Assembly: GCA_020627825.1 (NCBI GenBank)
Contig: JAHDGD010000001.1
Coordinates: 1 to 64,000 of the forward strand
Length of the DNA stretch: 64,000 nucleotides
Reading direction: 5' to 3'
From: Saprospiraceae bacterium
Lineage (GTDB): Bacteria; Bacteroidota; Bacteroidia; Chitinophagales; Saprospiraceae
The notes beneath the pieces were generated by a model. That model saw nothing but the letters and a program-made list of their open reading frames with translations. It had not been told where the DNA came from and did not search any database. This document shows positions 807 to 57,035 of this stretch, one piece after another. The translations under genes and the position numbers were made by a program. Numbering within the stretch: position 1 is the stretch's first letter; every line of letters begins with the position of its first letter.

Positions 807-961
807 ATCTACTTATAATTTGTTTTTAGTTCACAAGAATGAAAAACAATTCAATTGATTCGCTGCGTCGAAATGAAAAAAGACATAAAACTTTCTATTT
901 ATTTTTATTTAAAGGATAATTAGCTAAAAATATTTATTTTGGGCGAAAGCCCAATCAAAGT
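807..961. promoter_or_regulatory. divergent intergenic region between lipoprotein gene and rarA
   Basis: This 155-bp region separates two divergent starts and must hold both promoters. The most visible element is the GGGC-GAAA-GCCC palindrome at 939-954, ending seven bases before the rarA ATG. A TATTTTG at 934-940 is one base short of the Bacteroidota -7 consensus TAnnTTTG and overlaps the palindrome. I cannot assign a confident -33 box. Confidence 0.35.
939..954 (+). repeat. short palindrome, GGGC-GAAA-GCCC type, at the rarA start
   Basis: Arms TTGGGC and GCCCAA surround GAAA, which as RNA would be a GNRA tetraloop hairpin. It occupies the position where a ribosome binding site would lie, seven bases upstream of the rarA ATG. 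One of a family of similar palindromes in this window (see findings). Confidence 0.7.
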
Positions 962-2239
962 ATGAAAATACCTCTTGCAGAACGAATGAGACCAAATACA
1001 TTGGAAGAGTATTTAGGTCAACAGCATATTGTAGGCGAAAAAGCGATAATCTATAAATCCATCCAAAATCATACGATTAGTTCTATGATTTTTTGGGGAC
1101 CTCCAGGTGTTGGAAAAACTACACTTGCGAGGATTATTTCTACAACCCAAGATAGACCCTTTATAGAGATTAGTGCTATAAATGCTGGAGTAAAAGATAT
1201 CAGAGATGCTATTAGTCGAGCAAAATCAAACACATTATTTACAAAACCAAACCCAATTCTTTTTATAGACGAAATCCATAGATTTAGTAAATCTCAACAA
1301 GATGCTTTATTAAAGGCAGTTGAAAATGGTACAATTATTCTTATAGGTGCAACGACAGAAAATCCATCTTTCGAAGTAATTCCCGCTTTATTAAGTCGAT
1401 GCAGAGTTTATACACTTGAACATTTAGATAAAGCTCAACTTGAAGCGCTTTTGTATAAAGCGATAGAGAAAGATGAATATCTCAATCAACGGGATATTGA
1501 AATAAATGAAACTTCAGCTTTAATAAGATATAGTGGAGGTGACGCAAGGAGGTTATTAAATGGATTTGAAACGATCATTCAAAGTTTTAAACCTGATGAA
1601 ACAATTAATATCACAGATGACTTGGTGACTAATATCATACAAGAGAATTTTTCGATTTATGATAAAAATGGTGAAATGCATTACGATATTATATCCGCTT
1701 TTATAAAAAGTATACGTGGAAGTGACCCGAATGCAGCAATTTATTATTTAGCTAGACTTATAGATGGAGGTGAGGATGTAAAATTTATTTGTAGAAGAAT
1801 GCTTATTGCAGCTAGTGAAGATATAGGAATGGCAAACCCCAATGCTTTATTACTTGCAAACGCAACTATGGAAAGTTGTATCAAAACAGGATATCCAGAA
1901 GCTCGTATTATGATGGCACAATGCGCAGTATATCTAGCATGTAGTGCAAAGAGTAATAGTAGTTACAAAGCCATCAATTTAGCTATTCAGTATGTAAAGC
2001 AAAACCCAAATGAAAGTGTACCTTTACATTTGAGGAATGCACCTACTAAGTTGATGAAGGAACTAGGATATGGTGATCAGTATCAATATGCTCATGATTA
2101 TGAAAATAATCATTCAATACAAGAATTTCTTCCTGAATCAGCTAAAGGAAATGTATTCTATGATCCTCAAAACAATCCTGCTGAACAGCGTATAAAGCAA
2201 ACATTGCATAATCTTTGGAAAGGAAAATATGGATATTAG
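962..2239 (+). CDS. rarA: replication-associated recombination protein A (AAA+ ATPase)
   Basis: RarA/MgsA (WRNIP1 family) acts at stalled replication forks as a clamp-loader-like AAA+ ATPase, interacting in other bacteria with SSB and ssDNA ends. The 425 residues match the family length. Visible motifs: N-terminal PLAERMRPNTLEEYLGQQH, Walker A GPPGVGKTT (residues 46-54), Walker B FIDEIHR (D103, E104), sensor 1 GATTENPSF, and the C-terminal tetramerisation region (IRGSDPNAAIYYLARLI; RRMLIAASEDIGMANP). The start is the only sensible ATG because the family begins with this PLAERMRP segment. It stands alone ahead of an acyl-CoA dehydrogenase gene 86 bp downstream. A GNRA-type hairpin lies immediately before the ATG and could affect initiation. 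Confidence 0.96.
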   Translation: MKIPLAERMRPNTLEEYLGQQHIVGEKAIIYKSIQNHTISSMIFWGPPGVGKTTLARIISTTQDRPFIEISAINAGVKDIRDAISRAKSNTLFTKPNPILFIDEIHRFSKSQQDALLKAVENGTIILIGATTENPSFEVIPALLSRCRVYTLEHLDKAQLEALLYKAIEKDEYLNQRDIEINETSALIRYSGGDARRLLNGFETIIQSFKPDETINITDDLVTNIIQENFSIYDKNGEMHYDIISAFIKSIRGSDPNAAIYYLARLIDGGEDVKFICRRMLIAASEDIGMANPNALLLANATMESCIKTGYPEARIMMAQCAVYLACSAKSNSSYKAINLAIQYVKQNPNESVPLHLRNAPTKLMKELGYGDQYQYAHDYENNHSIQEFLPESAKGNVFYDPQNNPAEQRIKQTLHNLWKGKYGY

Positions 2240-2325
2240 TGCTTAAAACCTTTTTAAAAAAATTGCATTTTGAATAAAGAATCACAATTCAACTCATTAA
2301 AAAATTAAAAAAGTTGATAAAATAA

Positions 2326-3462
2326 ATGAACACTGAAGATTTAAAGTTTATTGAAGAAGCCGCATTACAATTTGCCTCAACTCATATTAAACCTCATGTA
2401 ATGGAATGGGACGAATCTCAAAAATTTCCAATTGAAGTTTTTAGAAAAATGGGAGAATTAGGTTTCATGGGAGTATTAGTGCCAGAAGAATATGGAGGGA
2501 GTGGTATGGGATATCAAGAGTATATTACAATTATCAGTTCCATAGCGAAAACTTGTGGTAGTATTGGATTATCTTTAGCTGCACATAATTCATTGTGCAC
2601 CAACCATATCCTAACATTTGGAAATGAGAATCAAAAGAAAAAATATTTACCAAAATTAGCAACGGGCGAACATATAGGTGCTTGGGGATTAACAGAAGCA
2701 AATACAGGTAGTGACGCTATGCGTATGAAATGTGTTGCAGTTAAAGAGGGGGATTATTATATATTAAATGGAACAAAAAATTGGATTACACATGGAATTT
2801 CAGGTGAAGTTGCGGTTGTACTAGCACGAACTGGAGATTTACTGGACAGTAGAGGTATTACTGCCTTTATAGTTGAGAGAAATACAGAAGGCTTTAGTGC
2901 AGGAAAAAAAGAAAACAAGTTAGGAATGCGGGCAAGTGAAACAGCAGAACTTGTTTTTAATAATTGTAAAATTCATAAAGATCAAATTCTAGGAAAAGAA
3001 GGAGAAGGCTTTATCCAAGCAATGAAAATTTTAGATGGAGGCAGGATAAGTATAGCTGCTTTATCTCTAGGAATTGCGAAAGGGGCATATGAAGCCAGTG
3101 TAAAATATTCTCAAGAAAGAGAACAATTTGGGAAAGCTATTTCAAGATTTCAAGCAATTGCTTTTAAATTAGCAGATATGAGAGTAAAAATTGAAGCTTC
3201 GGAATTGCTCACAAGAAAAGCGGGAACATTAAAAGACAATGGAGATAAGGTTACTAAAGCAGGTGCAATCGCAAAGTATTACGCAAGTGAAGCTTGTGTA
3301 GAAATAGCAACGGATGCCGTTCAAGTATTTGGTGGTTATGGTTATACAAAGGATTTTCCTGTAGAAAAGTATTATAGAGATTCCAAATTATGTACCATAG
3401 GAGAAGGAACATCAGAAATTCAAAAATTAGTTATATCAAGAGAATTATTAAATGGTCATTAA
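2326..3462 (+). CDS. acyl-CoA dehydrogenase (short/medium-chain type)
   Basis: FAD enzyme that oxidises acyl-CoA to trans-2-enoyl-CoA and passes electrons to ETF in beta-oxidation or branched-chain amino-acid breakdown. At 378 residues it matches the short-chain dehydrogenase family. Motifs: N-terminal helical domain, middle beta domain with AWGLTEANTGSDA (FAD/substrate contact), and the C-terminal helical domain with QVFGGYGYTKDFPVEKYYRD and IGEGTSEIQ. E360 in that last motif sits at the catalytic-base position of butyryl-CoA dehydrogenases. Chain-length preference cannot be read from sequence. The 3' end overlaps the next gene by 11 bp, so the two are probably cotranscribed although functionally unrelated. 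Confidence 0.93.
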   Translation: MNTEDLKFIEEAALQFASTHIKPHVMEWDESQKFPIEVFRKMGELGFMGVLVPEEYGGSGMGYQEYITIISSIAKTCGSIGLSLAAHNSLCTNHILTFGNENQKKKYLPKLATGEHIGAWGLTEANTGSDAMRMKCVAVKEGDYYILNGTKNWITHGISGEVAVVLARTGDLLDSRGITAFIVERNTEGFSAGKKENKLGMRASETAELVFNNCKIHKDQILGKEGEGFIQAMKILDGGRISIAALSLGIAKGAYEASVKYSQEREQFGKAISRFQAIAFKLADMRVKIEASELLTRKAGTLKDNGDKVTKAGAIAKYYASEACVEIATDAVQVFGGYGYTKDFPVEKYYRDSKLCTIGEGTSEIQKLVISRELLNGH

Positions 3463-5905: not shown

Positions 5906-5939
5906 AACAATAATCTAACTGTTAAGCAATTAATAGGTG

Positions 5940-5969
5940 CCTGGGAGATCATATCTTCCAGGTTTTTTT
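5940..5969 (+). terminator. intrinsic terminator after the metallopeptidase gene
   Basis: Stem CCTGG/CCAGG continued by AGAT/ATCT around a CAT loop (5940-5962), followed by seven T (5963-5969). The T run is on the plus strand only, so it ends the rarA-side transcript. The convergent NUDIX stop codon overlaps the end of the T run. Confidence 0.85.
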
Positions 5970-6603
5970 ATTGATTTTTTATTAGAAAATATTCGTAAAC
6001 ATCTTTAATATTCGGAAATATTGGCTTTGCTTGAAGAAGAAATTCATCATATTTAAACCATTTTGCAATTTCAATATCTTCTTCTTTTTGAGGTACTAAT
6101 TTCTTGTCTTTTGAAGTCATTATATACCAAATCGACTCTTTAAGTTTTCTTGCTTTCGGGTTTCCATATGAATGAAAAGTTGATCCTAGTTTCTTTACTA
6201 TTTCTACATTTTTCAATCCACATTCTTCCTTTACTTCACGTATAGCGCAATCTTTTTTCTTTTCATTTTCTTCAATCTTTCCTTTAGGGAAGTCCCATTT
6301 CCCTCTTCTAAAAATACTTAAGATTTCTTCTTTTTCATTTTTTACAATACCGCCAGCAGCAACAATTACTTCAAATAAAGCAAAAACATCAGATTTCAAA
6401 TTAGCCAAAGATTCTGAATGCAGAACAATCCGATTCATTTCATTTCTCTCTAGATTTACTATCGCATCATTAAGAATAGATGTATCATCAGAATATTCAA
6501 CTAGTTTTTGATTATCCTTTAAAATAATAAAAGGAACATCATTCGTTTCAATGAGTTGTAATAAATTCTCATTGATGTATATATTTAAAAACTCTTTATT
6601 CAA
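5968..6603 (-). CDS. NUDIX hydrolase
   Basis: 211 residues. The C-terminal two thirds is a Nudix fold with a complete Nudix box from G108 to L130 (GKIEENE, seven residues, then REVKEECGL), the Mg-binding site for hydrolysing nucleoside-diphosphate-linked compounds. The phrase FRRGKWDFPKGKIE is typical of (d)NTP or diadenosine-polyphosphate hydrolases. The first 75 residues do not resemble the domain. The start used is TTG at 6603-6601, overlapping the TGA stop of the upstream membrane-protein gene (TTGA); the next in-frame Met is residue 56, too close to the domain. This suggests translational coupling. Exact substrate unknown. Confidence 0.85.
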   Translation of the reverse strand: MNKEFLNIYINENLLQLIETNDVPFIILKDNQKLVEYSDDTSILNDAIVNLERNEMNRIVLHSESLANLKSDVFALFEVIVAAGGIVKNEKEEILSIFRRGKWDFPKGKIEENEKKKDCAIREVKEECGLKNVEIVKKLGSTFHSYGNPKARKLKESIWYIMTSKDKKLVPQKEEDIEIAKWFKYDEFLLQAKPIFPNIKDVYEYFLIKNQ

Positions 6604-7886
6604 TGTTTATATTTTAAAATTCTTGAACCGTAAAAAGCAAATATCGTCATTGCAAACCCTACAGGCAACATAAATAAATATGAAAATGGAACATATAAAA
6701 AACTATAAAATATGACTAAATAAAGAAGTAAGCTAAGCGCTAAATATATATTCCATTCCATTTTCACTTTATTCTTAAACCAAAAGTAACTTATAGCGAT
6801 TGCTGTTGAAAGACAAAAAATTAAATTGAATAATTTGGCTACATTTAATTTTTCTTCTTCATTTCCTCCTAAAAATGTATAAAAATAATATGAAAATGAA
6901 AGCCCATTATCTAAATGGTAAGGAATCGAACCAGGACTTTGCCAGAATTGAGTTTTCCACTGATCCGTTGCTGTTCTGCTATAATATTCCAATCCGTTTG
7001 TAAATATGGAAGGATCTTTAATTAAAAAAGGGAGTACATATAAAATTAAAATGACAGAGATGCCATATACTCCAATTTTAAAAATATTTTTAAATCCGCA
7101 TTCCTTCCAAATAACGAAAATAAAAGGAATTACATACAAGGTGTAGGAATATCTTGACATGGTACATAATCCTATTGAAAGACCTATTATCCACCATTTT
7201 TTTTGGGTTAAACCCAAAAGAAATAAAACATAAAAACTTAACGGCATAAGTTCTGTACCAAAGACAAAAACAGATACATCATAATGCACATACCATTTAA
7301 CAAATAACACAGGTAATATTGCAATTACAATAGCATGAATAAGACTAGGATACTTAAACAAATAATATAAACTACCAAAGCAATAAACAAGAAAAAATGA
7401 ACCTATAGCCATGAATCTATAATCAAACCCCAATACCTCAGGAATTATATAGGGCATCCACATTGCTGGAAAATATGTAGGTTGAACACTATAGTTTTCA
7501 AATGGAATTTCAACGTATACAGGATCCCCATTTAAAAATCTCTGCACATAAGCTTCTAAAGAAGGTATTACATCTGAACCATCTGCTTTATCTGCAAATT
7601 GCTCAAAAACCCATACCATTTCTTTAAAAATTATAAAACCTGATATGACTAATAGGAAAAGGCCCAATAACCAAGAAGACTTAACGAGCGATTTTTGTTG
7701 TAGACTATTTTGTAAATCAAATTTGTTCTTATAAAATGGTACAATTATTAAAATACCAGAAACTAACCAAATAATTGGATTAAGCTTTGTTACAGGAGCC
7801 CACTTTGTACTTGATAATAATATGAGTATAAAACCACATAAACTTATTAAGTACTGACTATATGCTTTAGCTTGAATTGAACGCAT
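6600..7886 (-). CDS. polytopic membrane protein, glycosyltransferase 87-like
   Basis: 428 residues with about ten hydrophobic segments from the N-terminus onward (SQYLISLCGFILILLSS, WLLGLFLLVISGFIIF, and later helices up to LFMLPVGFAMTIFAFYG). The first loop is long and extracytoplasmic with aromatic/acidic residues (ADGSDVIPSLEAYVQRFLNGDPVY), as in GT-C polyprenyl-phosphate mannosyltransferase-like proteins. I therefore suspect a GT87/DUF2029-type enzyme, but no diagnostic motif proves it. It is coupled to the NUDIX gene by a 4-base overlap. A perfect TTTTGGGTT/AACCCAAAA palindrome lies inside the coding sequence at 7201-7219. Confidence 0.6.
   Translation of the reverse strand: MRSIQAKAYSQYLISLCGFILILLSSTKWAPVTKLNPIIWLVSGILIIVPFYKNKFDLQNSLQQKSLVKSSWLLGLFLLVISGFIIFKEMVWVFEQFADKADGSDVIPSLEAYVQRFLNGDPVYVEIPFENYSVQPTYFPAMWMPYIIPEVLGFDYRFMAIGSFFLVYCFGSLYYLFKYPSLIHAIVIAILPVLFVKWYVHYDVSVFVFGTELMPLSFYVLFLLGLTQKKWWIIGLSIGLCTMSRYSYTLYVIPFIFVIWKECGFKNIFKIGVYGISVILILYVLPFLIKDPSIFTNGLEYYSRTATDQWKTQFWQSPGSIPYHLDNGLSFSYYFYTFLGGNEEEKLNVAKLFNLIFCLSTAIAISYFWFKNKVKMEWNIYLALSLLLYLVIFYSFLYVPFSYLFMLPVGFAMTIFAFYGSRILKYKH
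7201..7219. repeat. palindrome inside the membrane-protein gene
   Basis: Arms TTTTGGGTT and AACCCAAAA around one A. It is a T-for-C variant of the GGGCTT-W-AAGCCC family and encodes LGLTQKK in a short loop between two hydrophobic helices. Confidence 0.6.
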
Positions 7887-10900: not shown

Positions 10901-13900
10901 GTTGCGTTCCATCCGCTGGTAAGGCAAATTCATTTTCAATACCATAATCAAAAACATATGTTGGAACATTGTCTATTTGTACAATATACGAAGCAGAACC
11001 ATTAATATTTGAGGCATTTAAAGTAATGGTGATTTCATCATCAGTAGGATCAGAGGTGGTCCCATTATCGTTACATGAAAGAATCAACTGTTCTGCATTT
11101 ATAATACAATTAGTACTGCATGGATTTAAAGGAATTGAAAGCTCTTCAACAAAACAGTTTGTTTCAGAATCTATAAACTCAATTAACACCTCAAGACCAG
11201 AAGCTGGTATTGTAATTTCATGTTCCTCATTGTACGTAAAAACACCAAATTCTTCACCACTAATAATAACTGAAAATGAATTTAAATCGTTAGAAGTACT
11301 CGAAATCATGAAACTTATCACAAAAAAATCATCCGTTGAATCAGTTCCAGTACCAGCATTGTTACAAACATATTGTATGCTTTCAATATTTAGTTCAACC
11401 CCCTCATCAATTGAAAAGAAAAGTGTATCATAACAAAAATTAATATCTTCTATTTCTAGAGAGTAACTCCCAACTTCCAGATTCGTCAAGCCATCAGGAT
11501 ATGAAATAGAAGCTCCATTTAAAAACAAAACATAATTTATTAAGTCTTCTGGTTGGATGATCTCTACATTTCCAAAATCATTAAGACAATTTGGATCTAT
11601 GACATCAATTATAAGCTCTGGACTATTGTTTATAATCAATTCAAAACCTACAATTGAATAACAACCGAATAAGTTCGTAACTCTAACATAAATACTATCG
11701 TTTTCCATAAACGAATTTGAAATGAATCCATTCATTTGGGCGTAAGCCTCTTCTAGAGTTAAAAAATATTCAAATATATTATCTACATTATTATTGATTA
11801 TCGTATTAAATTGGTCAAACTCCACACTCACTGGCAAATCTTCTTCATTTACACAATATGCTATATCCTCTGGTGCCGTGACAGGTGGACCACTTATCAC
11901 TTCAAGCGTCACTTCTGTTAAAGTAGATGAAAAACATCCTGGAAATTCTATACTCTCTGTTCCTATAAAATAAGTATAAATTCCTTGTGTAAATTGTTCT
12001 AATATTAGACTATCAACCCCACTTAAAAATGGTGTATCATCATTTATGTCTTCGTACCAATGTAAGATCAAGCCTTCTTCATGAATTCCATAAACAATGC
12101 CCACCTGATCACTTTCACATATTACATCACCTACCCCTTCTGGAGCGGGAACTTGTGGACAATTACAATTTGGGGGATTTACCATTAAAAACCCTACACA
12201 TGAATTCATAGGATCTAGATAATTAATCGTAATATTTGATTCTATAGGAATGTCTATAATCCATACAATTCCCCCACCTTGCTCGACTACTTCACCTTCA
12301 GTCGCTAAAATCAAGGCTCCAAATGACTGTAATTCAATCGTGTATGTAGTATTGTTGTTTGTACAGAAAATAGTATCTATTTCAACAGGTTCTAATTCAA
12401 AATAATTAATAGAAATAATTGCTTGATCTTCCTGACAAGAATTTCCAGATTGCACCGTGTAACTAAATTCATATACACCTGGATCTTGACTGTTTATTAC
12501 AATTTCTGTTGGATTATCTAAATTTACATTAGCCCCGTCCAAGTCTTGCCAAAAACCACCAGGAGTATACGTGTCTCCCAATAACTCAATCAAATTCACC
12601 ACTCCTGGAACACATAATTCAGTTTCATTATCATTACCTGCAACAGGCGGTAAATCAACAATTATTGTGATTGGTATCTCTTCTTCACATCCTAAATCGT
12701 TAAACACTCGAATCGTATACAATGTAGTTTCTATAGGCGATACTACTAAATCAAATAATTGTGTTGCAACATCTGATGGAAATCCTTCATAGTAGTTTAT
12801 TTCAAAAGCTTGACCATTATTATCTTCAACGGTGATAGATTCTAAATCAAAACTACTTCCTAAACAAATATTACTTTCTATAGGATCTACAGTCAAGGAT
12901 AAGTCAGGAGATAAAGTTACAAATTGAACATGTTCTATTTCTTCCAGAGTACAAGGATCTGTAAAACTCCATATATGGGTATAAACATTATCAACAAAAT
13001 CTACTTCGGCTGCGACCAAACCCGAAATAGAGCATTCACCTAAAATGTCATTACTATAACTCAATTCCTCTGGAGGTATATATGCCTGTCCACAATTAAG
13101 TGTAATATCCTCCGGAGGGTTTACAAATTCTGGAGGAGATGCTTGTTCTACTGTTATAGTACGAATGAATGTTAAAACATTACCACATAAATCTGTTTCT
13201 GACCAAGATTGAGTAATTATTCCGCCACATTCATCATAACTACCTGTTTGGAGAGCTATACTAGACCCTGAAATCAAACATAATCCTTCTGCATTATTGG
13301 TATAATTAATTAAATTGGGGAAATTACCCACTTCATTACAAGTTATAGTGATGTCTTCAGGTGTATTTATAAAATTCGGAGCATCCGCTTCCGTAATCGT
13401 AATCGTTTGATTTGCTTCAATTGTTCTACCACAATCGTCCGTGAATGTCCAAGTATATACAATCTCTCCTCCACAAGCTGTATAATTTTCAGATACAGTA
13501 GGAACAACTGTATCTGATATTAGGCAATCACCACTTAAACCATTTGTTACATTTAAGTTCTGTGGAGAAGGAATCGAATTGCAAGTTATAGTAGTATTAG
13601 TAGGAATTGATGAAAAACTAGCTTCTGTGGCTGCAAGTACAGTAATATTTTGTGTAGCAGTATAGGTGGTACCGCAATCATCTATTGTTTCCCAAGTTAC
13701 CACAAGATCGCCTCCACAAGCATCATAGCTTCCTGATACTTCAGGAGCTACTTCCCCACTTATAAGACATGCACCTATACCATTATTTGTAAAAGTGAGA
13801 TCAATTAGATTTACCTCTACTTCATCGCAATCAAGAGTTAAGCTAGAGGGTATATTTTCAAATGCGATTGGTTCTAAATCTGAGACTGTTATAATCCTAC

Positions 13901-22894: not shown

Positions 22895-25879
22895 ATGGAT
22901 CCTCTAAAAGCTATTTTAGAATCTCATTTTGGACTTGCAGTACATGATATTCAACAATTTGAGGGAGAAGTGAACCTCAATTTTAAATGTATATTGGGTG
23001 ATGGAAAATGTTTTAATATAAAACTCTTTCATGCCTCTACCAATAATGAAAGTATTGATTTTCTTGTACAACTACACAAGCATTTTCGATCTTTTAAAAG
23101 TATCGAAATTCCTGATATCAAACCTTGGGAAAAAGATAGTTATATAAAACCGATACTTTATGATGACAAAACCTACAATGCCATCATTTTAGAATGGATT
23201 GATGGTAAATTATTGAGCGATGTATTATATCATCCTCCATTGCTCTTAAACAGATGGGGGCAATTATGTGCTCAAGTGCAGCAACATCTTTATGATTTCG
23301 ATCATCCGCACCTGAATCGATTTGAAGAATGGGACCCACTTCATTTACTGCATCATACAGCGAAAATTGATACGTTACCCGACCAACATAAAAAAGATAT
23401 TATACATAATGTGTTCAGTCAGTTTAATTCGTATTCAAAAGCATTGAAGGACCTACCGATAAGTCATAATCACAATGATTTTCACACAGAGAATATTTTA
23501 GTACATTTTAATGGGCTTTCGCCCAAAATAATGGGGCTAATCGATTTTGGTGATACATTGAAAACATTGAGAATTTGTGATGTGGCCATTGCTTGTGCCT
23601 ATGTCATTATGGAAAAGAAAGACGGATTAGCTGCAGTTCGGTCCTTTTTAGAAGGATTTACTAAGTATGTTACATTGACTGAAGGTGAAATTGAAGTTTT
23701 AGACATTTTAATAAGAGCAAGACTCTCCATATCTGTATTGATTTCAGCTGATAAAAAGACTAAAGGTGTTTCTTCTTCATATCAGTTTATAAGTGAAGAG
23801 AAAGCTTGGAATGCATTGAATTATCTAGATTCGATGCAAGCATCATTTATCCATTATTCCCATCGAGTTGGAGCTGGATTCATAGCCCATCCCAACTTTC
23901 ATATTTTCCAAGAATGGTGTACAAAAAATAGAAATCTTTTTAAACCTGTTATGGATTTTCAAAAGGAGAAAAGTGGACGCATCGACTTAAGTGTTGCTTC
24001 AACTGTGATTCCATCAACATATGATTTACAAACTGTTACGACATTCGAAAAACATGTTTTCAATTATTTAGAACAAAAAGACTGGGCATATGCATATGGG
24101 GGATATGGTGAAATAAGACCTTTTTATACAACGGATAATTATGAAGCAGAAAACGATCAAGGATATCAATGGAGAACCCAGCATTTAGGACTAGATATAT
24201 GGTCTAGCCTAAAGGATAAAAGTAACTCAAAAAGGAAAATTTTTAGCCCCTATCAAGGTAAGGTCATATGTTCCCATAACAATGACGAAAGGTGTGACTA
24301 TGGATATACACTTATTCTTCAGCATCACACAGATGAGATGCCATTCTATACATTATATGGGCATCTTTCTAAAGAATCAATGGAATTAAGTCCTATCGGA
24401 AAATGGGTAGAAGCAGGAGATCATATCGCGTATTTAGGAGACAAAAATGAAAATGGAGCGTGGCCACCCCATTTACATTTTCAAGTCTTACTTGATTTAT
24501 TAGGTAATACAACAAATTACCCAGGTGTGTGCTACCCTTATGAATGGAAGATTTGGAGCGCTCTTTGCCCTACTCCACATCTACTTACCCCATACTTATT
24601 ATCTTCTAAGATAGAAGATAATTCAGTCGAAAAATTATTGCCCATAAGACAATTAGTTCTTGGTAAAAATCTCAGTGTTTCATACAAACGACCTTTAACT
24701 ATATTAAGAGGTTATATGCAATATTTATATGACGAATCTGGTAGAAGATATCTTGATACCGTAAATAATGTAGCACATGTAGGCCATGAACATCCTGTTG
24801 TTACGCAAAAGGCAATCAGACAACTTCAGCTATTAAATACCAATACACGCTATCTTCATCCAAATATTCTTCGGTATGCTAAAAAATTATTGGCTACTTT
24901 TCCTTCCAATATTACAAGAGTTTATTTCACAAATTCTGGAAGTGAAGCGAATGAACTTGCATTAAGGATAGCAGAGTCTTATGTAAAAACAAAAGATAAA
25001 GTTGTATTTGAAATGGGTTATCATGGAAATACAACGAATACTGTTGATATAAGCTCTTATAAATTTGATAGAAAAGGTGGAAAAGGAAAAACTAAAAGTA
25101 TAATCAAAATCCCATTTTACAAACGTAATGATACAGATTCCAAAAGAACTTATAAAGAACAAGTCAATAAATTCATACAAGGAACAAAACCCTTATGCTT
25201 CATTGGAGAAAGTATTTTAAGTTGTGCAGGACAAGTTGAATTAGACAGTGAAATGTTGAGATATGTCTATAACATCATTCAATCTAATGGTGGTATTTGT
25301 ATAGCCGATGAGGTTCAAACAGGTTTTGGGCGAATAGGATCTCATTTTTGGGCTTTTCAGGATCATGATGTTCAACCTGATATCGTAACAATGGGTAAGC
25401 CGATAGGTAATGGCCATCCTATAGGAGCGGTGGTTTGTACAGAGGAACTTGCTGAGAGCTTTGATAATGGGATGGAATATTTTAATACATATGGGGGTAA
25501 TCCTGTCAGTATGGCAATAGCTGAAGCTGTTCTTGATGAGGTTTATGAACAAAATTTACAAGCTCATGCAATCGAGATGGAAAAAGCATTTTATTCAATA
25601 ATCAAAAAGCTCGAATTGCCATCAGGTATTCAGGTCTCCACACGTGGAAAAGGACTGTTTTTAGGTATTGAATTAATGGAAAGCGGGATGGAAGCAACCG
25701 ATTGTGCCAAATTCATTACGAATCGTATGCGAGAAAAAGGAATACTAATGAGTAGCGATGGGCCTTATGAGAATGTATTAAAAGTAAAACCACCAATGTG
25801 TTTTAATGAAAAGGATATGAAAAAAATGATGTATAATTTACAGCAAGTTCTCAATGAGTATGCGGCATTAACAACTTAA
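22895..25879 (+). CDS. three-domain fusion: APH-type kinase, M23 peptidase, class III aminotransferase/phospholyase
   Basis: 994 residues. Residues 1 to about 330 are an aminoglycoside-phosphotransferase-like kinase with Brenner motif [11 protein letters not shown] (catalytic D195) and GLIDFGD (D217). Residues about 390-545 are an M23 LytM-type domain with intact zinc residues: HLGLD (H430, D434) and HLHFQ (H526, H528). Residues about 575-994 are a class III PLP enzyme with [22 protein letters not shown] and the PLP lysine K835 in [12 protein letters not shown]. In animals, hydroxylysine kinase and the phospholyases PHYKPL/ETNPPL are separate enzymes acting in sequence. The inferred role is phosphorylation of an amino alcohol (hydroxylysine, ethanolamine or similar) followed by elimination of phosphate and ammonia. 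The role of the M23 domain is unclear. No signal peptide, so cytoplasmic. Confidence 0.88.
23512..23525. repeat. palindrome GGGC-TTTC-GCCC inside the kinase domain
   Basis: Arms TGGGC and GCCCA around TTTC, the exact reverse complement of the 939-954 core. It encodes the GLSPK part of [16 protein letters not shown], in the loop between the two catalytic motifs of the kinase, a place where related kinases usually have a shorter turn. Confidence 0.6.
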
Positions 25880-26809: not shown

Positions 26810-26830
26810 TTTTGGGGTTTAACCCCAAAA
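26810..26830. repeat. perfect 21-bp intergenic palindrome (GGGG variant)
   Basis: Arms TTTTGGGGTT and AACCCCAAAA around one T, lying between the DUF427 stop (26843) and the methyltransferase start (26772) on the minus strand. The GGGGTT stem is a variant of the GGGCTT family. T run on the left and A run on the right, opposite to an intrinsic terminator. Confidence 0.75.
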
Positions 26831-26842: not shown

Positions 26843-27130
26843 TTATTTTTCTACAATTTCTACTCCTTTCCAGAATGCGACTCGATCTTTAATAACCTTC
26901 GCAGCATCTTTAGGATTTTTATAGTACCATACTGCATCAGGGTTTTTCATACCATCAACTGAAAGTGTGAAATAATTAGCTATCCCCTTCCAATGACACG
27001 AAGTTTCTGTACTAGAATTAATAATGTAGTCTTTATTAAGGGATTGTTCTGGAAAATAGTGATTTCCTTCAATTAATACAGTATTATCAGATTCCGCAAT
27101 GATTTTACCGTTCCAAATAGCCTGTTTCAT
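26843..27130 (-). CDS. DUF427 domain protein
   Basis: 95 residues spanning one complete DUF427 domain: AIWNGKIIAESDNTVLIEGNHYFP at the start, TSCHWKGIANYFTL in the centre and WYYKNPKDAAKVIKDRVAFW at the end. The small beta-fold family is widespread and has no established biochemical role. The conserved Cys-His-Trp-Lys-Gly patch is present. It is 25 bp downstream of the DEAD-box helicase and probably in the same transcript, with the methyltransferase following. Confidence 0.9.
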   Translation of the reverse strand: MKQAIWNGKIIAESDNTVLIEGNHYFPEQSLNKDYIINSSTETSCHWKGIANYFTLSVDGMKNPDAVWYYKNPKDAAKVIKDRVAFWKGVEIVEK

Positions 27131-31182: not shown

Positions 31183-31638
31183 ATGGATTTGATTTCAGTA
31201 GTTAAACAAGGTAATATTCAGCAAATTTCTGATCTTATAGCTCGAGACCCTTCTCTAATTAATACGCACGATGACAAAGGATTCACACCATTGGTTTTTG
31301 CTAGTTATATGAATAAAAAAGAGATTGTGGAATTACTACTTAAAAATGGTGCTGATGTCAATTCAATAGATATTGCTGGAAATACTGCTCTTATGGGTGT
31401 TTGCTTTAAAGGGCATATAGAGATTGCAGATCTTTTATTGGAACATGGAAGTAAAGTAAATGTAGTCAACACATTAAATCAAACAGCTTTGCACTTTGCG
31501 GCAATGTTTGACCAATTTGAAATAGTAAAAAAGTTAATGGAACATGGATGTGATACTCAGTTAAAAGATAAATCAGGCAAAACCGCAAAAGAATATGCAC
31601 ACGAAAAAGGATTTTCCCGTATCGTTACACTGTTGTAA
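31183..31638 (+). CDS. ankyrin-repeat protein
   Basis: 151 residues made of about four ankyrin repeats (DKGFTPLVFASYMNKKEIVE; AGNTALMGVCFKGHIEIA; NQTALHFAAMFDQFEIV; SGKTAKEYAHEKGFSRIV) with a short N-terminal helix and no signal peptide, hence cytoplasmic. Diverges from oxyR with an 86-bp gap. In Pseudomonas the ankyrin protein AnkB accompanies catalase KatB and OxyR control; a similar oxidative-stress role is inferred here, although no catalase is in the window. Its end faces the Prc gene across a 23-bp palindrome. Confidence 0.9.
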   Translation: MDLISVVKQGNIQQISDLIARDPSLINTHDDKGFTPLVFASYMNKKEIVELLLKNGADVNSIDIAGNTALMGVCFKGHIEIADLLLEHGSKVNVVNTLNQTALHFAAMFDQFEIVKKLMEHGCDTQLKDKSGKTAKEYAHEKGFSRIVTLL

Positions 31639-31642
31639 GTTA

Positions 31643-31665
31643 TTTTTGGGCTTAAAGCCCAAAAA
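31643..31665. repeat. perfect 23-bp palindrome between convergent genes
   Basis: Arms TTTTTGGGCTT and AAGCCCAAAAA around one A, in the 34-bp gap between the ankyrin and protease stops. Identical over all 23 bp to the copy at 57013-57035. T on the left and A on the right is the reverse of terminator polarity, although a stable hairpin forms in both directions. Confidence 0.8.
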
Positions 31666-31672
31666 TTCTAAA

Positions 31673-33757
31673 CTATTTTTGCACCAATCTTTTGTCAAAA
31701 TCTAACATATCTTGCATAATTAGCAAGCTTTCATTTAATTGAATATCACTTAATAAAGAATTTAGAAATCGGTCACTTTTAATTTTCCTAGTTGTGAATT
31801 CATTAACATAAGACTCATCACTAGAAGTTATCTGTGCATACATATCCTCTATTTTATCTTCGAATATGGAATCAAAGCGATCCATTTTCTTACTCATATC
31901 ATCTAACTCATTTTTATACATATCGAAATCTAAATAAACTTGCGTTTTATCTTCTTGACCTGAAATAAATTGACTGTATTCTTTCAACCGAGTGAAATTG
32001 GGATTGTCTTCCACCCTTACTTGGCTATTTGACTTTAAGATATCAATCTTTTTCGTTTTATAAACATTTTGATTATATGAAAGAGGTTTTATCTTGCTGT
32101 AAGATAAAGCATCTTCATTATCACTTTCTCCATATTCTATGGAATAAAATTCATCAGGAACAATGATATCAGGAATAATACCTTTCAATTGATTGCTTTC
32201 GCCTGATACTCTAAAAAATTTTTGAACAGTTAATTTTACTTGCCCCAAAGGTTTGATCGAATGATCGCCTTCTATCATACGATCAAGATCGAATAAGCCT
32301 TGAACCGTTCCTTTACCGTATGTTTTAGGGCCACCTACTATAACCGCACGATCATAATCTTGTAAAGCACCTGCAACAATTTCAGAAGATGAAGCACTTA
32401 CTCCATTTACTAAAACAATTAATGGGCCATCATAAGCAACATTTTTATTCTCATCTTTGTATATTTCTTTTTCTCCTCTATTGTCTGTTACCTGAAGAAC
32501 AGGTCCTTTTTCAATAAATAATCCCGTCATATCAATTGCATCTGGTAATGATCCACCTCTATTATATCGAAGATCTAAAATTATGCCATTGACACCATCT
32601 TTATTAAGTTTTGCAATCTCTTTTTCTACATCGGCAGCACAACTTTTTCCACCATCAAAAGTACCATAAAACAATGGTAGGTGTATATAACCAATACGAT
32701 TTACTTCATTTTCAATTCCTATAATCGCAGATCTAGCTAAAGCATCTTCCAGTATGATCTCATCACGTTCTATAGCAATTGTTTTTGTAATTCCTCCTGT
32801 TCTTTTTACCTTAAGAATGACGACACTTCCTTTATCACCTCTAATCATTCTGATAACATCTTCAACTCTCATTCCAGCAATATCTATCGATTTCTCATTC
32901 TCTTGCTGAACTTCTATTATAATGTCATTTTCCTGTAATTCTTGACCTTTCCAGGCAGGTCCTCCAGGTACTATACTCATTACTTTAACAAAATCCCCTT
33001 CTTGTAATAATTGAGCCCCTATTCCTTCTAATTTATTTCCCATTTGGATCTCGAAATTTTCTTGTTCCTGAGGGCTAAAATAGGAGGAATGGGGGTCAAA
33101 TTGGCTCATTATAATATTGATGTATTGATCAAAACGGTCATTTCTTGAAATATTATGAAGTCTTTCGAACCATTCATCATACAATTTCATGGTTTTTAAA
33201 ATAGCTTCATTTTTTAACTCTTCTTTGCTTTTGTCACTGTCTGAAAGATCATACATTTTACCCACAACTGTATATTGGATGAGATCTTCCCATTCTTGAT
33301 ATAAAGCTTCAATTGAACTAGGATGTTCTTTTTTTGCTCCATCTGTTTCATAAGAAACCATTTCATTAATTGAAATATCTTTATGAATGATCTCTTTATA
33401 TATACCTTCTGCCCTATCAATGGCATCATCCATTACTAGACAAGTTTTATTAAAAAACTCGAAATCAAAGTCATTAATTTGATTGTCAATATCTCTTATG
33501 TAAGTGGATAAATGATTGATTTCGGATTGCAATAAAAAACGTTTTGACTCATCTAATAAAGAAATATAATCGTCGAAAATAGCTTCAGAAAATGTATCAT
33601 CGATTTCTTTTGGAGAAAAATGCAGGTAATCAGAAATACCCATAACTGTATAAAGAATGGCACTTTCTCTTTCGTAATTTGAACTATCAACTTGAAAAAA
33701 AGAACTAACGAATACTAGACAAATACTATAAAATAAACTTCTCTTGTTCATAGCCAA
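31673..33757 (-). CDS. prc: C-terminal processing (tail-specific) S41 protease
   Basis: 694 residues of the Prc/Tsp class, which trims C-termini of periplasmic proteins and lipoproteins. A signal sequence (LFYSICLVFVSSFFQ) is followed by an N-terminal helical region, a PDZ domain around residues 230-320 (GIGAQLLQEGDFVKVMSIVP), and the S41 core. The catalytic Ser is in VNGVSASSSEIVAG and the Lys in GPKTYGKGTVQ. A DUF3340-like C-terminal helical part follows. Its length matches the long Bacteroidota and E. coli form. No lipobox; likely periplasmic. Monocistronic, ending at the convergent palindrome. Confidence 0.92.
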   Translation of the reverse strand: MAMNKRSLFYSICLVFVSSFFQVDSSNYERESAILYTVMGISDYLHFSPKEIDDTFSEAIFDDYISLLDESKRFLLQSEINHLSTYIRDIDNQINDFDFEFFNKTCLVMDDAIDRAEGIYKEIIHKDISINEMVSYETDGAKKEHPSSIEALYQEWEDLIQYTVVGKMYDLSDSDKSKEELKNEAILKTMKLYDEWFERLHNISRNDRFDQYINIIMSQFDPHSSYFSPQEQENFEIQMGNKLEGIGAQLLQEGDFVKVMSIVPGGPAWKGQELQENDIIIEVQQENEKSIDIAGMRVEDVIRMIRGDKGSVVILKVKRTGGITKTIAIERDEIILEDALARSAIIGIENEVNRIGYIHLPLFYGTFDGGKSCAADVEKEIAKLNKDGVNGIILDLRYNRGGSLPDAIDMTGLFIEKGPVLQVTDNRGEKEIYKDENKNVAYDGPLIVLVNGVSASSSEIVAGALQDYDRAVIVGGPKTYGKGTVQGLFDLDRMIEGDHSIKPLGQVKLTVQKFFRVSGESNQLKGIIPDIIVPDEFYSIEYGESDNEDALSYSKIKPLSYNQNVYKTKKIDILKSNSQVRVEDNPNFTRLKEYSQFISGQEDKTQVYLDFDMYKNELDDMSKKMDRFDSIFEDKIEDMYAQITSSDESYVNEFTTRKIKSDRFLNSLLSDIQLNESLLIMQDMLDFDKRLVQK

Positions 33758-41862: not shown

Positions 41863-41920
41863 TCTGACATGAATCTAGTTGATTTATTATGCTTTAAAAT
41901 TGAGTCAGTATATAAAAAAA

Positions 41921-41947
41921 AGAGGTTATCCCTATGAGATAACCTCT
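41921..41947. terminator. bidirectional intrinsic terminator between symporter and dnaK
   Basis: Perfect 10-bp stem AGAGGTTATC/GATAACCTCT with a 7-base loop, A run on the left (from about 41914) and TTTA on the right. It lies between the convergent symporter and dnaK stops. Confidence 0.9.
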
Positions 41948-41973
41948 TTAATATCTAGTATAGAATAAGTATT

Positions 41974-45165: not shown

Positions 45166-45184
45166 TTTGGGCTTTAAGCCCAAA
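45166..45184. repeat. perfect 19-bp intergenic palindrome downstream of prfB
   Basis: Arms TTTGGGCTT and AAGCCCAAA around one T, in the gap between the prfB stop (45192) and the lipoprotein start (45060). Same family as 31643 and 57013. On the prfB strand it is followed by GAAAATT rather than a T run. Confidence 0.75.
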
Positions 45185-45191: not shown

Positions 45192-46272
45192 TTACTCGCC
45201 ATTCCAAGTTAGAAATGCTTTTAAAAATCCTTCTAAATCTCCATTTAAAACGGCATCTGTGTTATTTACAGTATATCCTGTTCGATGGTCTTTTACTCTT
45301 CTGTCATCTAGAACATAAGATCGTATTTGTGATCCCCATTCATTTTTCATTTTTCCTGCTTCTACTTTTTGCTTTTCCTCTTGCCTTCTTTTTATCTCTG
45401 CTTCATATAATCGTGATTTCAACATGATAATCGCTTTTTCTCTATTGAGATGTTGCGATCTTTCTTCTTGACACTCTACCACAATTCCACTCGGTGCATG
45501 TCTTACACGAACAGCAGATTCAGTTTTATTTACATGCTGACCACCAGCTCCACTTGCACGAAACGTATCCCAATCTAAATCTGCTGGATTAACATCAATT
45601 TCTATACGATCATCAATTAAAGGATGGACAAAAACAGAAGCAAAAGATGTCATTCTTTTTCCTTGGGCATTGAAAGGCGATACTCTTACTAGTCGATGTA
45701 CACCATTCTCACTTTTTAGCATGCCATATGCATAATCACCTTTTATCTCTATACTGACGGACTTAATTCCTGCAACATCGCCTTGAACTGATGATAAAAT
45801 TGACGTTTTGTAATTGCTCTTATCACTGTACATTAAGTACATACGCTCCAACATACTTGCCCAGTCACATGCTTCTGTTCCTCCGGCACCAGCATTTATT
45901 TCCAAAATTGCAGATAATTCATCTTCCTCTTGATCCATTGCCAATCGAAACTCAACATCTTCCAATAATTCAATGGTTTGATCATACTTTGTGATTACTT
46001 CCTCTTCTTGAATTTCTCCCATTCGAAAAAATTCATCCAAAACCTCCAAATCATCAATTTGCTCTTTGATAGTATTATAACGCAATATCCTATTTTTATG
46101 CGTCTGAATCTGACGCATAATGTCTTGAGCTCTTTTACTATCGTTCCAGAATTCCGGATCAAGTTGTAACTGTTCTAAATCTGCTAATTCAGCTGTTCTC
46201 TTCTCGACTTCAAAGATAGCCCTTCAAGTGGGCCAGCCTAGATTTTAAATCATTTAATTGCTCTATTGTCAT
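45192..46272 (-). CDS. prfB: peptide chain release factor 2, with programmed +1 frameshift
   Basis: Translation begins at ATG 46272, reads 20 codons (MTIEQLNDLKSRLAHLKGYL) to an in-frame TGA at 46212-46210, then must slip +1 at CTT TGA and continue from 46211 (EVEKRTAELADLEQL) to the stop at 45192, giving 359 residues, the normal RF2 length. The slip context AAGGGCTATCTTTGA resembles the classical RF2 site with an upstream SD-like AGGG. RF2 motifs: SPF (VRVSPFNAQGKRM) and GGQ (RASGAGGQHVNKTESAVR). It terminates at UGA and UAA, so the frameshift is autoregulatory. The ATG shares one base with the FKBP stop (TAATG). Confidence 0.95.
46210..46218 (-). promoter_or_regulatory. prfB programmed frameshift site
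   Basis: Codons TAT CTT TGA at the end of the first 20-codon frame. The CTT codon slips +1 and the UGA is recognised by RF2 itself, so low RF2 favours completion of the protein. The stimulating AGGG lies a few bases upstream. Confidence 0.93.
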
Positions 46273-48868: not shown

Positions 48869-49843
48869 CTATTTATTAATATCAAGTTTGAAAGTAAATT
48901 TACCACATTGTTCTCTAGGAGCATCAATGTCCTTTTCATACTTATAATTTTTTGCAACCTCTAGCGCTCTTTTCAATTTTGCTCTATTCGTAATTGACGT
49001 TTCTTTCCTTATTAACTCCGTGTGGATAACATCACCTCTTGGGTTGACGCACATTTTTACAACAATTTTTCCTGTAACGTCATTTTGCATTAACGATCCG
49101 AGATTAGGAATTTTTATGACTCTTCTACCGAATATTCCTTGCCCACTATCATCATATTCTCCTTTACCCAAGCCACCAGTTCCTATTCCGCTATTACCAT
49201 CATTACCTGAAGCATCTGAACCACTTCCAGAACCTGAATCAGTTTTACCTGTGCCACTTCCACTAGATGGTTTAGAGGTCGTATTATTAGACCCTGTCCC
49301 ACTTCCAGATGATGATGAAGGTTTACTTGTGGATGTTTTAGGTTTTGAAGCACCTGTACTTGGCTTAGGTACATCTTGTTTTTTAGGAATATCTACTTTT
49401 ACTGGTTCTTCAAAAGCAATTTCATCCTCTACAGCTGTTACAGGACTTTCCTCTTCAACTACTTCTGTAACTTCAGGTGTAATAATTTCAGTAACTTCTT
49501 GAACAGGTTCGTCTTCAAACTCTTCTTCCTCAACGATTTCTTCTACCTCTTCTACGACTTCCTCTACTTCTTCAGGTTGTTCTTCAACTTCTTCGGCTCT
49601 CTCTTCTTCCGCTGCTTGTTCCGGCATTTCACCTGCTGCCTCTTGACCACTTGTTGAATTGGAACTGCGATCCAATGTAAAATCGATGGCAACAGCATAT
49701 TGATCATCTATTGACTCTTCAGGATTATCAGCAAATCTCCCAAAAATAAAAAGCAATAGCAATATGATTACATGAATCGCGATCGAGTAATTACGCCCTT
49801 TACGCTGATTTTTTTGTTCTATAATTGTTAGTCTCTCTTTCAT
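48869..49843 (-). CDS. TonB-like energy transducer protein
   Basis: 324 residues from the preferred ATG at 49843 (the frame opens 28 codons earlier but that part is read through a palindrome). A short basic N-terminus (MKERLTIIEQKNQRKGRN) precedes one transmembrane segment (YSIAIHVIILLLLFIFG), then a strongly acidic Glu/Val-rich stretch, a Ser/Gly/Thr/Lys-rich linker and a TonB-like C-terminal domain (VIKIPNLGSLM; GKIVVKMCVNPRGDVIHTELI; CGKFTFKLDI). Such proteins reach across the periplasm to TonB-dependent receptors; ExbB/ExbD are not adjacent. Confidence 0.8.
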   Translation of the reverse strand: MKERLTIIEQKNQRKGRNYSIAIHVIILLLLFIFGRFADNPEESIDDQYAVAIDFTLDRSSNSTSGQEAAGEMPEQAAEEERAEEVEEQPEEVEEVVEEVEEIVEEEEFEDEPVQEVTEIITPEVTEVVEEESPVTAVEDEIAFEEPVKVDIPKKQDVPKPSTGASKPKTSTSKPSSSSGSGTGSNNTTSKPSSGSGTGKTDSGSGSGSDASGNDGNSGIGTGGLGKGEYDDSGQGIFGRRVIKIPNLGSLMQNDVTGKIVVKMCVNPRGDVIHTELIRKETSITNRAKLKRALEVAKNYKYEKDIDAPREQCGKFTFKLDINK

Positions 49844-49873
49844 ATCTAACCAATTTAATTTATCCGCAATTAT

Positions 49874-49897
49874 TTTTTTGGGCTCGAGCCCAAAAAA
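49874..49897. repeat. perfect 24-bp palindrome upstream of the TonB-like gene
   Basis: Arms TTTTTTGGGCTC and GAGCCCAAAAAA with no spacer, centred on CTCGAG. It lies 31 bp before the preferred start at 49843. Longest member of the family; a T/A flank polarity opposite to a terminator. Confidence 0.8.
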
Positions 49898-50001
49898 CAT
49901 ATTACTTGAATATAGTATATAATACAAATTTCAAGCCATTTATTTTATAGTATGACGGATAACATTCGAAAATTACACAAACGAATTGAATATATAATAC
50001 T

Positions 50002-52443: not shown

Positions 52444-52511
52444 TGTTTATTATTTATTCAAAAGGTGAACGCTGAAACACTTATGTTGTTCAGCAAAAAT
52501 TAAAGAAAAAG

Positions 52512-52519
52512 CAAATATA
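52512..52519 (-). promoter_or_regulatory. -7 promoter box of mdh
   Basis: TATATTTG on the minus strand fits TAnnTTTG, 68 bp before the mdh ATG. The -33 TTG is not clear. Confidence 0.4.
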
Positions 52520-52658
52520 TACATATTTGGAAATTACTAGAAAATTAAAATTTAGATCTAATTTACGTAATCACTTAATCTATATAAATTGTAACACATA
52601 ATGGCATTGAGTTTAATAATATGATGGCTAGATGACAACAGAGATATAAATTAATAAG

Positions 52659-52666
52659 TACATTTG
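52659..52666 (+). promoter_or_regulatory. -7 promoter box of the M43 protease gene
   Basis: TACATTTG fits TAnnTTTG, 80 bp before ATG 52746. No clear -33 element. Confidence 0.35.
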
Positions 52667-52745
52667 TTTTAATCTACAACTAAATATCATTCATAATAGG
52701 GGTTTTCCTTTTCTGAATCATTATAAAGCTATATAAATTACGAAC

Positions 52746-54239: not shown

Positions 54240-54275
54240 GCAGTAAGTTAATTAAGCTTACAAACAAACATTAAT

Positions 54276-55715: not shown

Positions 55716-55730
55716 GCATTTGTATGCTTA
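55713..55730 (+). terminator. hairpin at the M43 stop codon, overlapping the sucC promoter
   Basis: Perfect arms TAAGCAT and ATGCTTA with a 4-base loop. The first arm contains the stop codon and the second runs into TACTTTTG, so the same bases could end one transcript and start the next. The following CTTTTG is only a weak T run. Confidence 0.5.
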
Positions 55731-55736
55731 CTTTTG
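55729..55736 (+). promoter_or_regulatory. -7 promoter box of sucC
   Basis: TACTTTTG, an exact TAnnTTTG match, 19 bp before the sucC ATG at 55756. The TTG expected near -33 is not seen at usual spacing. Confidence 0.5.
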
Positions 55737-55755
55737 CGAAAAATCTATAGAATAA

Positions 55756-56958
55756 ATGAATCTTCACGAATATCAAGGAAAGGAATTATTGGCCTCATAT
55801 GGAGTTGCAATCCAAAGAGGAGTATTGGTAAATAATGAAGCAGAAATAGATGCTGCTTTAGCTCAATTAAAAGAAGAAACAGGAACTGATTTTGCTGTTG
55901 TAAAAGCACAAATACATGCTGGTGGACGAGGAAAAGGAGGTGGAGTTAAGTTGGGGAAAACCGAAGCAGAAATTAAAGAACATGCTGAGAATATTCTTGG
56001 TATGATGTTAAAAACTCCTCAGACACCAGGCGGACTTGATGGAGAAGGTAAACTTGTTCGTAAAGTTTTGATTACTGAGGACAGCTATGCTCCTGATTTC
56101 GATGCCTGTAAAGAGTTTTATGTTAGTATAATGCTTGATAGAGAGCAAAAGAAAAACGTCATCATTTATAGTACGGAAGGAGGAATGAATATAGAAGAAG
56201 TTGCTGAACAGACTCCTCATTTAGTGCATAAAGAACATATCCACCCTCATCTAGGACTTCAAGGTTTTCAAGCTAGGAAAATTGCATTTAATCTCGGTTT
56301 AACAGGACAAGCCTTCAAAGAGATGACTAAATTTATCTCAAAGTTATATAAAGCTTTTGTGGGAAGTGATGCTTCATTATTTGAAATAAATCCAACATTA
56401 AAGACTGGTGATGATCGAATTATTGCTGTAGATTGTAAAGTAAGCTTGGATGAAAATGCATTATTCCGTCACCCTGACCTTGCAGAGTTAAGAGATACCG
56501 ATGAGGAAGATCCTACAGAGGTAGAAGCAGGTTCATATGGATTAAATTATGTACAGCTAGATGGAAATGTAGGATGTATGGTGAATGGTGCTGGTTTAGC
56601 TATGGCTACAATGGACATCATCAAATTGTCAGGAGGATCACCTGCTAACTTTTTAGATGTTGGAGGAACTGCTGATGCTGCAAGAGTGGAACAAGCGTTT
56701 AGAATCATTATGAGAGATGAAAATGTAAAAGCCATTTTAATCAATATCTTTGGTGGAATCGTTCGTTGTGATCGAGTGGCTCAAGGGGTTGTTGATGCAT
56801 ATAAAAATATAGGTGATATAAAAATTCCTATTATTGTTCGGCTTCAAGGAACAAATGCAGATATTGCAAAAACGTTAATTGATGAATCTGGACTTGAAGT
56901 TCATTCAGCAATCGAACTTGCAGAAGCTGCAAAACTGGTTGAAGATTTGATCAAGTAA
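55756..56958 (+). CDS. sucC: succinate-CoA ligase (ADP-forming), beta subunit
   Basis: 400 residues. ATP-grasp beta subunit of succinyl-CoA synthetase; makes succinate plus ATP in the TCA cycle with alpha subunit SucD. Opening [45 protein letters not shown] and the C-terminal [17 protein letters not shown] are hallmarks. SucD is not adjacent, as is common in Bacteroidota where sucC and sucD are separated. Ends with terminator-like elements at 56985-57035. Confidence 0.97.
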
Positions 56959-56984
56959 ATGTAAAGTAAAGAATTTAAAGAAAG

Positions 56985-57019
56985 GTGCATCCATTAAGTT
57001 AGGTGCACTTTTTTTTTGG
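56985..57019 (+). terminator. weak intrinsic terminator after sucC
   Basis: GTGCA and TGCAC form a short stem around about 14 bases and are followed by nine T (57009-57017). It abuts the 57013-57035 palindrome, which shares the T run. Confidence 0.55.
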
Positions 57020-57035
57020 GCTTAAAGCCCAAAAA
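57013..57035. repeat. perfect 23-bp palindrome between sucC and the helicase
   Basis: Arms TTTTTGGGCTT and AAGCCCAAAAA around one A, identical to 31643-31665, in another convergent gap. Here its left T run doubles as the sucC terminator tail. Confidence 0.8.

Follow-up and report, generated by a model that had tools for sequence, protein, structure and literature searches.

A clade-limited family of near-perfect palindromes with T-before, A-after polarity in a Saprospiraceae genome, candidate sites of a symmetric DNA-binding protein

The first 64,000 nucleotides of contig JAHDGD010000001.1 of a Saprospiraceae bacterium (assembly GCA_020627825.1), hereafter the window, contain short palindromes in which a GGGC/GCCC-type stem has T on its left and A on its right. 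An earlier note on this DNA had listed six of them, and all six were recovered with this arrangement. At 939-954, TTGGGCGAAAGCCCAA is an even-spaced member (four nucleotides between the stem halves, N4) with a non-palindromic GAAA centre, lying 7 bp 5' of the predicted start of an MgsA-type AAA+ ATPase gene (962-2239, + strand). TTTTGGGGTTTAACCCCAAAA at 26810-26830 is a GGGG/CCCC subform, with a paired change, of the odd form in which five nucleotides separate the stem halves (N5), and it is located 12 bp 3' of the stop codon of gene 26843-27130 (− strand). The 23-mer TTTTTGGGCTTAAAGCCCAAAAA occurs in two identical odd-form copies, as the earlier note had it: at 31643-31665 it occupies most of a 34-bp convergent gap between genes 31183-31638 (+) and 31673-33751 (−), and at 57013-57035, within a 120-bp convergent gap, its T arm runs into the T tract of a separate terminator-like hairpin at its left. 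Another odd-form member, TTTGGGCTTTAAGCCCAAA (45166-45184), lies 7 bp 3' of the stop codon of a peptide chain release factor gene (45192-46118, −), and TTTTTTGGGCTCGAGCCCAAAAAA (49874-49897), an even member with a TCGA centre, overlaps the predicted, uncertain start of gene 48869-49900 (−). A seventh, shorter palindrome, TTTTGGGTTAAACCCAAAA at 7201-7219, represents a short subform inside gene 6600-7886 (−). Gene calls were made for this analysis, by longest open reading frame at first and then by a hexamer gene finder. As a contrast case outside the family, an ordinary A-left/T-right hairpin resembling an intrinsic terminator is present in a convergent gap at 41919-41949; an ordinary terminator-like hairpin of the window has a predicted RNA folding energy of −17.9 kcal/mol, and the six palindromes have −10 to −13 kcal/mol. 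No tRNA genes were found in the window, and Rfam models gave no match to it at the gathering threshold.

The genome to which the window belongs (G000, 4.46 Mb) carries 110 copies of TTTGGGC-N5-GCCCAAA, 103 of them with a TTNAA centre (TTTGGGCTTNAAGCCCAAA), and none of the control with reversed polarity. Base composition predicts about 0.00004 copies of TTTGGGCTTNAAGCCCAAA, which bears out the proposal of a dispersed family of reversed terminator polarity whose GC-stem palindromes are beyond chance. The TCGA form (TTTGGGCTCGAGCCCAAA) is present in 125 exact copies and the GGGG form (TTTGGGGTTNAACCCCAAA) in 18, so that the three exact forms sum to 246 copies. Spacing is restricted: when TTGGGC-N(L)-GCCCAA was counted in a 454-kb sample, L=4 occurred 14 times and L=5 29 times, while every other L from 0 to 13 gave zero. 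Three stem versions with swapped polarity or core were absent from this sample, and five Markov-1 resamplings contained none. Because many stretches of the 454-kb sample and of a larger 933-kb sample were chosen for holding sites, densities in both are inflated. In 20 contigs not chosen for sites (182 kb, of which 173 kb was readable), 15 members were found, giving about 86 members per Mb, a value slightly lowered by the inclusion of C1, C5, C60 and C110, which were already known to lack an N5 match.

The arms of these palindromes are matched with unusual strictness. In 941 kb, 54 copies were perfect and only 3 had one mismatch; of the 8 copies with two mismatches, 3 were the paired GGGG form and 5 were one-sided. 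At the fourth stem position, 90 copies comprised 81 C-G and 9 G-C combinations, the latter changed on both arms, and none was mismatched, although about 16 one-armed changes would be expected if the arms varied independently. One-armed changes that would leave a G-U pair at odd-form stem positions numbered 2 in G000 and 0 in a second Saprospiraceae genome, the metagenome-assembled G001, a relative that shares the family. Half-sites outside palindromes in G000 were near their Markov expectation, with TTTGGGCTT found 16 times against 14.7 expected and TTTTGGGC, the largest excess, 79 times against 62. Inverted half-site pairs, by contrast, fell 11 or 12 bp apart in 84 of 85 cases in G000 and 31 of 34 in G001. 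The unit of the family is the dyad and not the single half-site.

Outside the core, one further position is favoured. T was found at −8 outside each GGG in 81 of 120 half-sites in G000 and 33 of 38 in G001, an excess over gap background (p = 1e-12 and 1e-11, respectively) that persists against the local T level of 0.49 at neighbouring positions (p = 3e-5 and 1e-6). This T lies past the mean T run of about 5, and its distance from GGG is the same in 13-bp and 12-bp cores of G000 (66% and 71%, and 43 of 66 in a larger TCGA set). In tandem gaps it was nearly equally frequent on the 5' and 3' sides (17 and 17 of 28 in G000; 10 and 12 of 12 in G001). Unlike the paired core, it is independent between the two sides, with 25 of 60 G000 sites having it on both and 4 on neither; the few copies of the short form showed no such preference. 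A T favoured 8 bp outside both GGG implies a footprint of about 29 bp. Centres were palindromic in 29 of 35 tandem and 17 of 19 convergent copies, and 20 of the 113 members of the 933-kb sample had non-palindromic centres; the third, shorter form with a GGG-CCC spacing of 5 accounted for 10 copies in that sample. The lengths of T run and A run are not equalised (equal in 13 of 63 sites in G000 and 1 of 20 in G001, with 11.2 and 3.4 by permutation). The five nucleotides after GCCC were 94% A among 34 sense-oriented sites, with two of the five fixed by the search pattern and convergent sites counted from both sides, and the next five were 48% A and 32% T. In the flank profile, T/A tracts border the stem on either side, and neither a GTAG or CGTC tag nor a common flank beyond single positions is present.

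Among 60 genomes, G000 included, the N5 motif was found 110 times in G000, 26 times in G001, 5 times in G003, once in G002 and once or twice in four others; G001 is 51% and G002 61% complete. The strict motif TTTGGGCTTNAAGCCCAAA was present 103 times in G000 and once in one other of 396 genomes of the order, a draw that did not include G001-G003, and the exact 23-mer was found in one contig among 84,980 species genomes, a collection that may lack records of the window's own genome. G003 has two TCGA copies and one GGGG copy, and G002 one TCGA copy. The N5 matches inspected in G002, G003 and other genera were in open frames, mostly in motifs like FGLxAQ or LGLxPK, with the one intergenic exception of locus L105 (position 9144), and in G003 protein motifs such as FGLxAQ give rise to a low background of coding matches. 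The family is confined to one clade and is absent, as a family, from the related genera sampled. Its subforms have shifted between the sister species G000 and G001, as there are only 5 TCGA copies in G001 against 125 in G000, and 15 GGGG copies in G001, which has half the bases, against 18. Search listings of the published literature showed no description of this palindrome family. A phage origin was considered, and the 21-base TTTTGGGCTTWAAGCCCAAAA had no exact match in IMG/VR.

Comparison of G001 with G000 through 96 reciprocal best hits (mean protein identity 63%) indicated that some sites are retained. Among gaps of at least 60 bp, 5 of 6 with a site in G001 had one in G000 compared with 3 of 23 without (Fisher p = 0.0025), a contrast that includes two apparent signal-peptide sites at the gap edge and one case of different places in the same gap, and G001 contigs were mostly picked because they bear sites. 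Strictly same-place gap pairs are L097/L048 (10841) and L117/L129, to which L116/L039 and L080/L138 are added from outside the gap table. Paired changes have occurred in place: GGGG/CCCC in G001 corresponds to GGGC/GCCC in G000 at L117/L129 and L080/L138 (offset of about 16 bp, by eye), and the centre CTTAAG of G001 corresponds to CTCGAG of G000 at L116/L039. Weighing against conservation, the G001 stretch aligned to the 45166 site carries no palindrome, and between G003 and G000 only L105/L036 is common among 7 orthologous gaps with a G000 site (position by eye). This partial sharing between G001 and G000, with a single site shared between G003 and G000, means that the set is partly old and partly young. 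The site common to G000 and G003 (L036 12451 and L105 9144) is in a divergent gap and is preceded in both by the same 15-base word, CGGCGAAGGTATGAA.

The earlier note called the palindromes intergenic, and this holds as a strong bias but not as a rule because coding sequence also carries copies. For 113 members in 933 kb, placed by predicted genes, the density per kb was 0.036 in genes, 0.73 and 0.67 in tandem gaps, 0.78 in divergent gaps and 1.40 in convergent gaps; 22 members were in divergent gaps and 30 in genes. Convergent gaps held 12 of 39 gap copies of the odd form (5.8 expected, p = 0.009) and 12 of 33 of the TCGA form (4.6 expected, p = 0.001), and the short form, in small numbers, was divergent in 5 of 6 gap copies. 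Within tandem gaps the odd form was closer to the upstream stop codon in 17 of 20 cases (p = 0.0013) and the TCGA form in 9 of 14 (p = 0.21). Six convergent gaps of 31-50 bp are mostly filled by the palindrome, namely window 31639-31672, L042, L044, L149, L151 and L152, the last three having been fetched for holding sites. In 38 convergent gaps shorter than 800 bp, 5 had both a palindrome and a terminator, 3 a palindrome only, 11 a terminator only and 19 neither, a distribution that gives no indication of palindrome and terminator excluding each other. At four sites (window 57016, L046 10678, L047 7993 and L146 17120), as judged by eye, the T tract of an ordinary terminator-like hairpin runs on into the T arm of the palindrome. 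Local groupings also occur, with three TCGA-form sites spaced about 1.7 kb apart at L160 12657, 14333 and 16026 (contig C78 of G000) and site pairs 100-170 bp apart within one gap at L140 4475/4591, L148 17439/17605, L128 13538/13648 and L029 16849/16951.

In its two open frames the odd palindrome translates as FGLKAQ or LGLKPK, with variants. FGLKAQ stands at the apparent signal-peptide end of eight genes, judged by eye (L030, L035 and L044 in G000; L080, L085, L089, L095 and L098 in G001), including the orthologous pairs L030/L098 and L044/L095. In RfbD, WecB, an acyl-CoA ligase and a GlcNAc-kinase-like protein, the peptide aligns to solved homologues (2-3 alignments each) without added residues of insertion length, the WecB alignments having single-residue gaps; the palindrome was therefore made by substitution in these four genes. 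The copy in MurF, a fifth case, sits in a variable region.

Genes next to the sites share no theme. Twenty were scanned of the 31 genes ending within 60 bp of an odd-form site, and their functions were varied, including a release factor, sigma-54, adenylate kinase, DAP epimerase, an LpxA-type acyltransferase, a dehydrogenase E1 component and a tail-specific protease. A further 20 scanned of the 25 genes starting near a site had no common function. Peptidases M23 and M28 and ABC transporters were the repeats, each seen twice, and the 40 scanned neighbour proteins show no regulon. With three exact forms numbering in the hundreds beside such varied core genes, the operator of a single regulator, one of three candidates put forward in the earlier note, is disfavoured.

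The sites are dispersed, clade-limited, strand-symmetric, nearly perfect, partly kept in place and concentrated in gaps, above all convergent ones. The symmetric outer contact, the two main spacings, the insertion-free coding copies, the absence of a regulon and the palindromic centres in one-way contexts such as tandem gaps, where an RNA read from one strand would not need symmetry, together suggest that the palindromes are read as duplex DNA by a symmetric protein whose task is genome-wide. We put the probability that the palindromes are sites of a putative symmetric DNA-binding protein with an insulator, roadblock or nucleoid role at roughly 45%. One dimeric protein of high specificity, or a small family of such proteins, would have arisen in the clade of this species and would recognise two half-sites T-N4-TTTGGGC in facing orientation, their GGGC and GCCC cores 4 or 5 bp apart and about 29 bp covered in all. 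The bias towards gene ends and convergent gaps suggests insulation or roadblock, and from position the factor might be a general two-way roadblock or insulator at gene ends, or a nucleoid-organising factor, and not the regulator of one regulon; this task is only inferred, since sites that simply kept away from promoters and coding sequence would show nearly the same distribution. Of the three candidates in the earlier note, the best fit is the site of a nucleoid- or partition-type protein, here putative. Noc, parS and matS are sites of nucleoid or chromosome organisation, short perfect dyads spread over one chromosome with clade-specific sequence, and the palindromes resemble them in being short dispersed dyads of clade-specific sequence. 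They differ in being more numerous and in having two main spacings, a gene-end bias and a binder that is only putative.

Several results weigh against such a protein. The main one is the strict covariation from arm to arm, which a hairpin or copying between arms predicts and which independent half-site binding leaves unexplained; independent half-sites should allow one-armed variants at the fourth stem position, where there are none. The short third form stretches a fixed dimer geometry, and the minority of non-palindromic centres is what a hairpin would allow. A search for a binding protein, covering the LacI family in G000 because its members can tolerate a 1-bp change in spacing, gave no match. 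The −7 promoter element of Bacteroidota, TAnnTTTG, was also considered; the palindromes favour T at −8 and show no preference for A at −7, which does not fit it. Hundreds of near-perfect copies with subform shifts and paired changes constitute a natural experiment on the birth and upkeep of a genome-wide site set. Should a protein bind the dyads, they would offer direct access to the organisation of the chromosome or the insulation of transcript ends in Bacteroidota. A wider proposal, that a putative dedicated protein marks the ends of unrelated core genes, convergent ones in particular, in a clade-specific, chromosome-wide, two-way insulator or roadblock system whose arms are kept identical in concert, is doubtful; if true, it would be a recently born bacterial analogue of transcript ends set by protein roadblocks.

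A nucleic-acid hairpin acting at transcript ends, as a two-way 3' element (a terminator without U, a pause or a 3'-exonuclease barrier) built from the GGGC/GCCC stem and an A-U arm, is a somewhat unlikely alternative that would amount to a terminator-like element of reversed polarity. Covarying arms, stable predicted RNA folds, loops mostly of 3 to 5 nt that are in part non-palindromic, the proximity of the odd form to upstream stops and the filling of short convergent gaps agree with it, and a GC hairpin near stop codons and in convergent gaps is a likeness to intrinsic (Rho-independent) terminators. Against this, the stem is followed by A and not U, the sequence is near-constant, and copies are also present in divergent gaps and in coding regions, apparent signal peptides included, with ordinary terminators alongside, so the view that these are ordinary terminators loses ground. 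Any RNA hairpin has to contend as well with the rarity of one-armed changes, even those compatible with G-U pairing, with tandem copies about as palindromic as convergent ones, and with a −8 T beyond the T run that is chosen independently on the two sides. Replication that corrects palindromes, by template switching between the arms, would make and keep the arms identical without a dedicated binder, and the paired changes at the fourth stem position without one-armed intermediates, as well as the GGGG/GGGC and CTTAAG/CTCGAG differences in place between species, are what it predicts. It leaves the one fixed sequence, the single-clade confinement and the side-independent −8 T unexplained, and T-run and A-run lengths have escaped equalisation, making it quite improbable.

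Mobile palindromes of repetitive extragenic palindromic (REP) or miniature inverted-repeat transposable element (MITE) type, with the transposase lost or unrecognised, were a further candidate of the earlier note and are unlikely here. REP elements, in the part of the published account available (PMC3733652), are dispersed high-copy palindromes of 20-40 bp, mostly in gaps, favouring convergent and unidirectional ones, with some intragenic, and our palindromes match them in size, copy number, hairpin, gap location and 3' bias; the different expansion of subforms in two sister species also suits mobility. By contrast, the Y1 transposase model PF01797 had no match in G000-G003, with an E. coli control positive and G001 and G002 incomplete, which agrees with the earlier remark that no transposase is visible and extends to RAYT proteins. 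REPs are described with RAYT transposases and with an unpaired GTAG or CGTC tag at one end of the stem, and such tags are lacking here. Homologous alignments of four coding copies show no extra residues, some copies have stayed where they were although the proteins of the two species average only 63% identity, and few decayed copies exist; further differences from REPs are symmetry mostly running through the centre and the favoured −8 T. The slimmest chance falls to a word resembling uptake signals or HIP, its copies either propagated through biased uptake or linked to a methyltransferase. Perfect copies do far exceed imperfect ones, and coding copies stand at permissive places such as apparent signal peptides, but single half-sites are near background and the density of the family is sparse, uptake words being denser. 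HIP1 of cyanobacteria, in the part of the source available (PMC4390886), is an 8-bp palindrome, GCGATCGC, over-represented in one clade; the dyad here is far longer, an 18-19 bp core with A/T-tract flanks, and its density per kb is about 20-fold lower in genes than in gaps.

Other repeats accompany the family. The hairpin GGGCGAAAGCCC, with a GNRA-type tetraloop, recurs in gaps and genes (window 23512-23525; L036 13953; L041 5037; L044 1507; L034 10508) and may be an element distinct from the fully palindromic forms. G001 also has, at L028:9-197 and about 40 further places, a different repeat of about 190 bp. Its copies are mostly 82-87% identical, none is among the G000 matches listed (best 40 candidates per genome), and it matches its own opposite strand at 69-72%, which makes it a long, imperfect, MITE-type palindrome. 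G000 and G001 share a further dispersed repeat of about 47 bp, whose copies are 81-85% alike and lie in both orientations (L080:69-116 and 11538-11586; G000 C92:1268-1315, C124:29475-29521, C100:6517-6563, C126:7004-7049 and C84:7239-7286).

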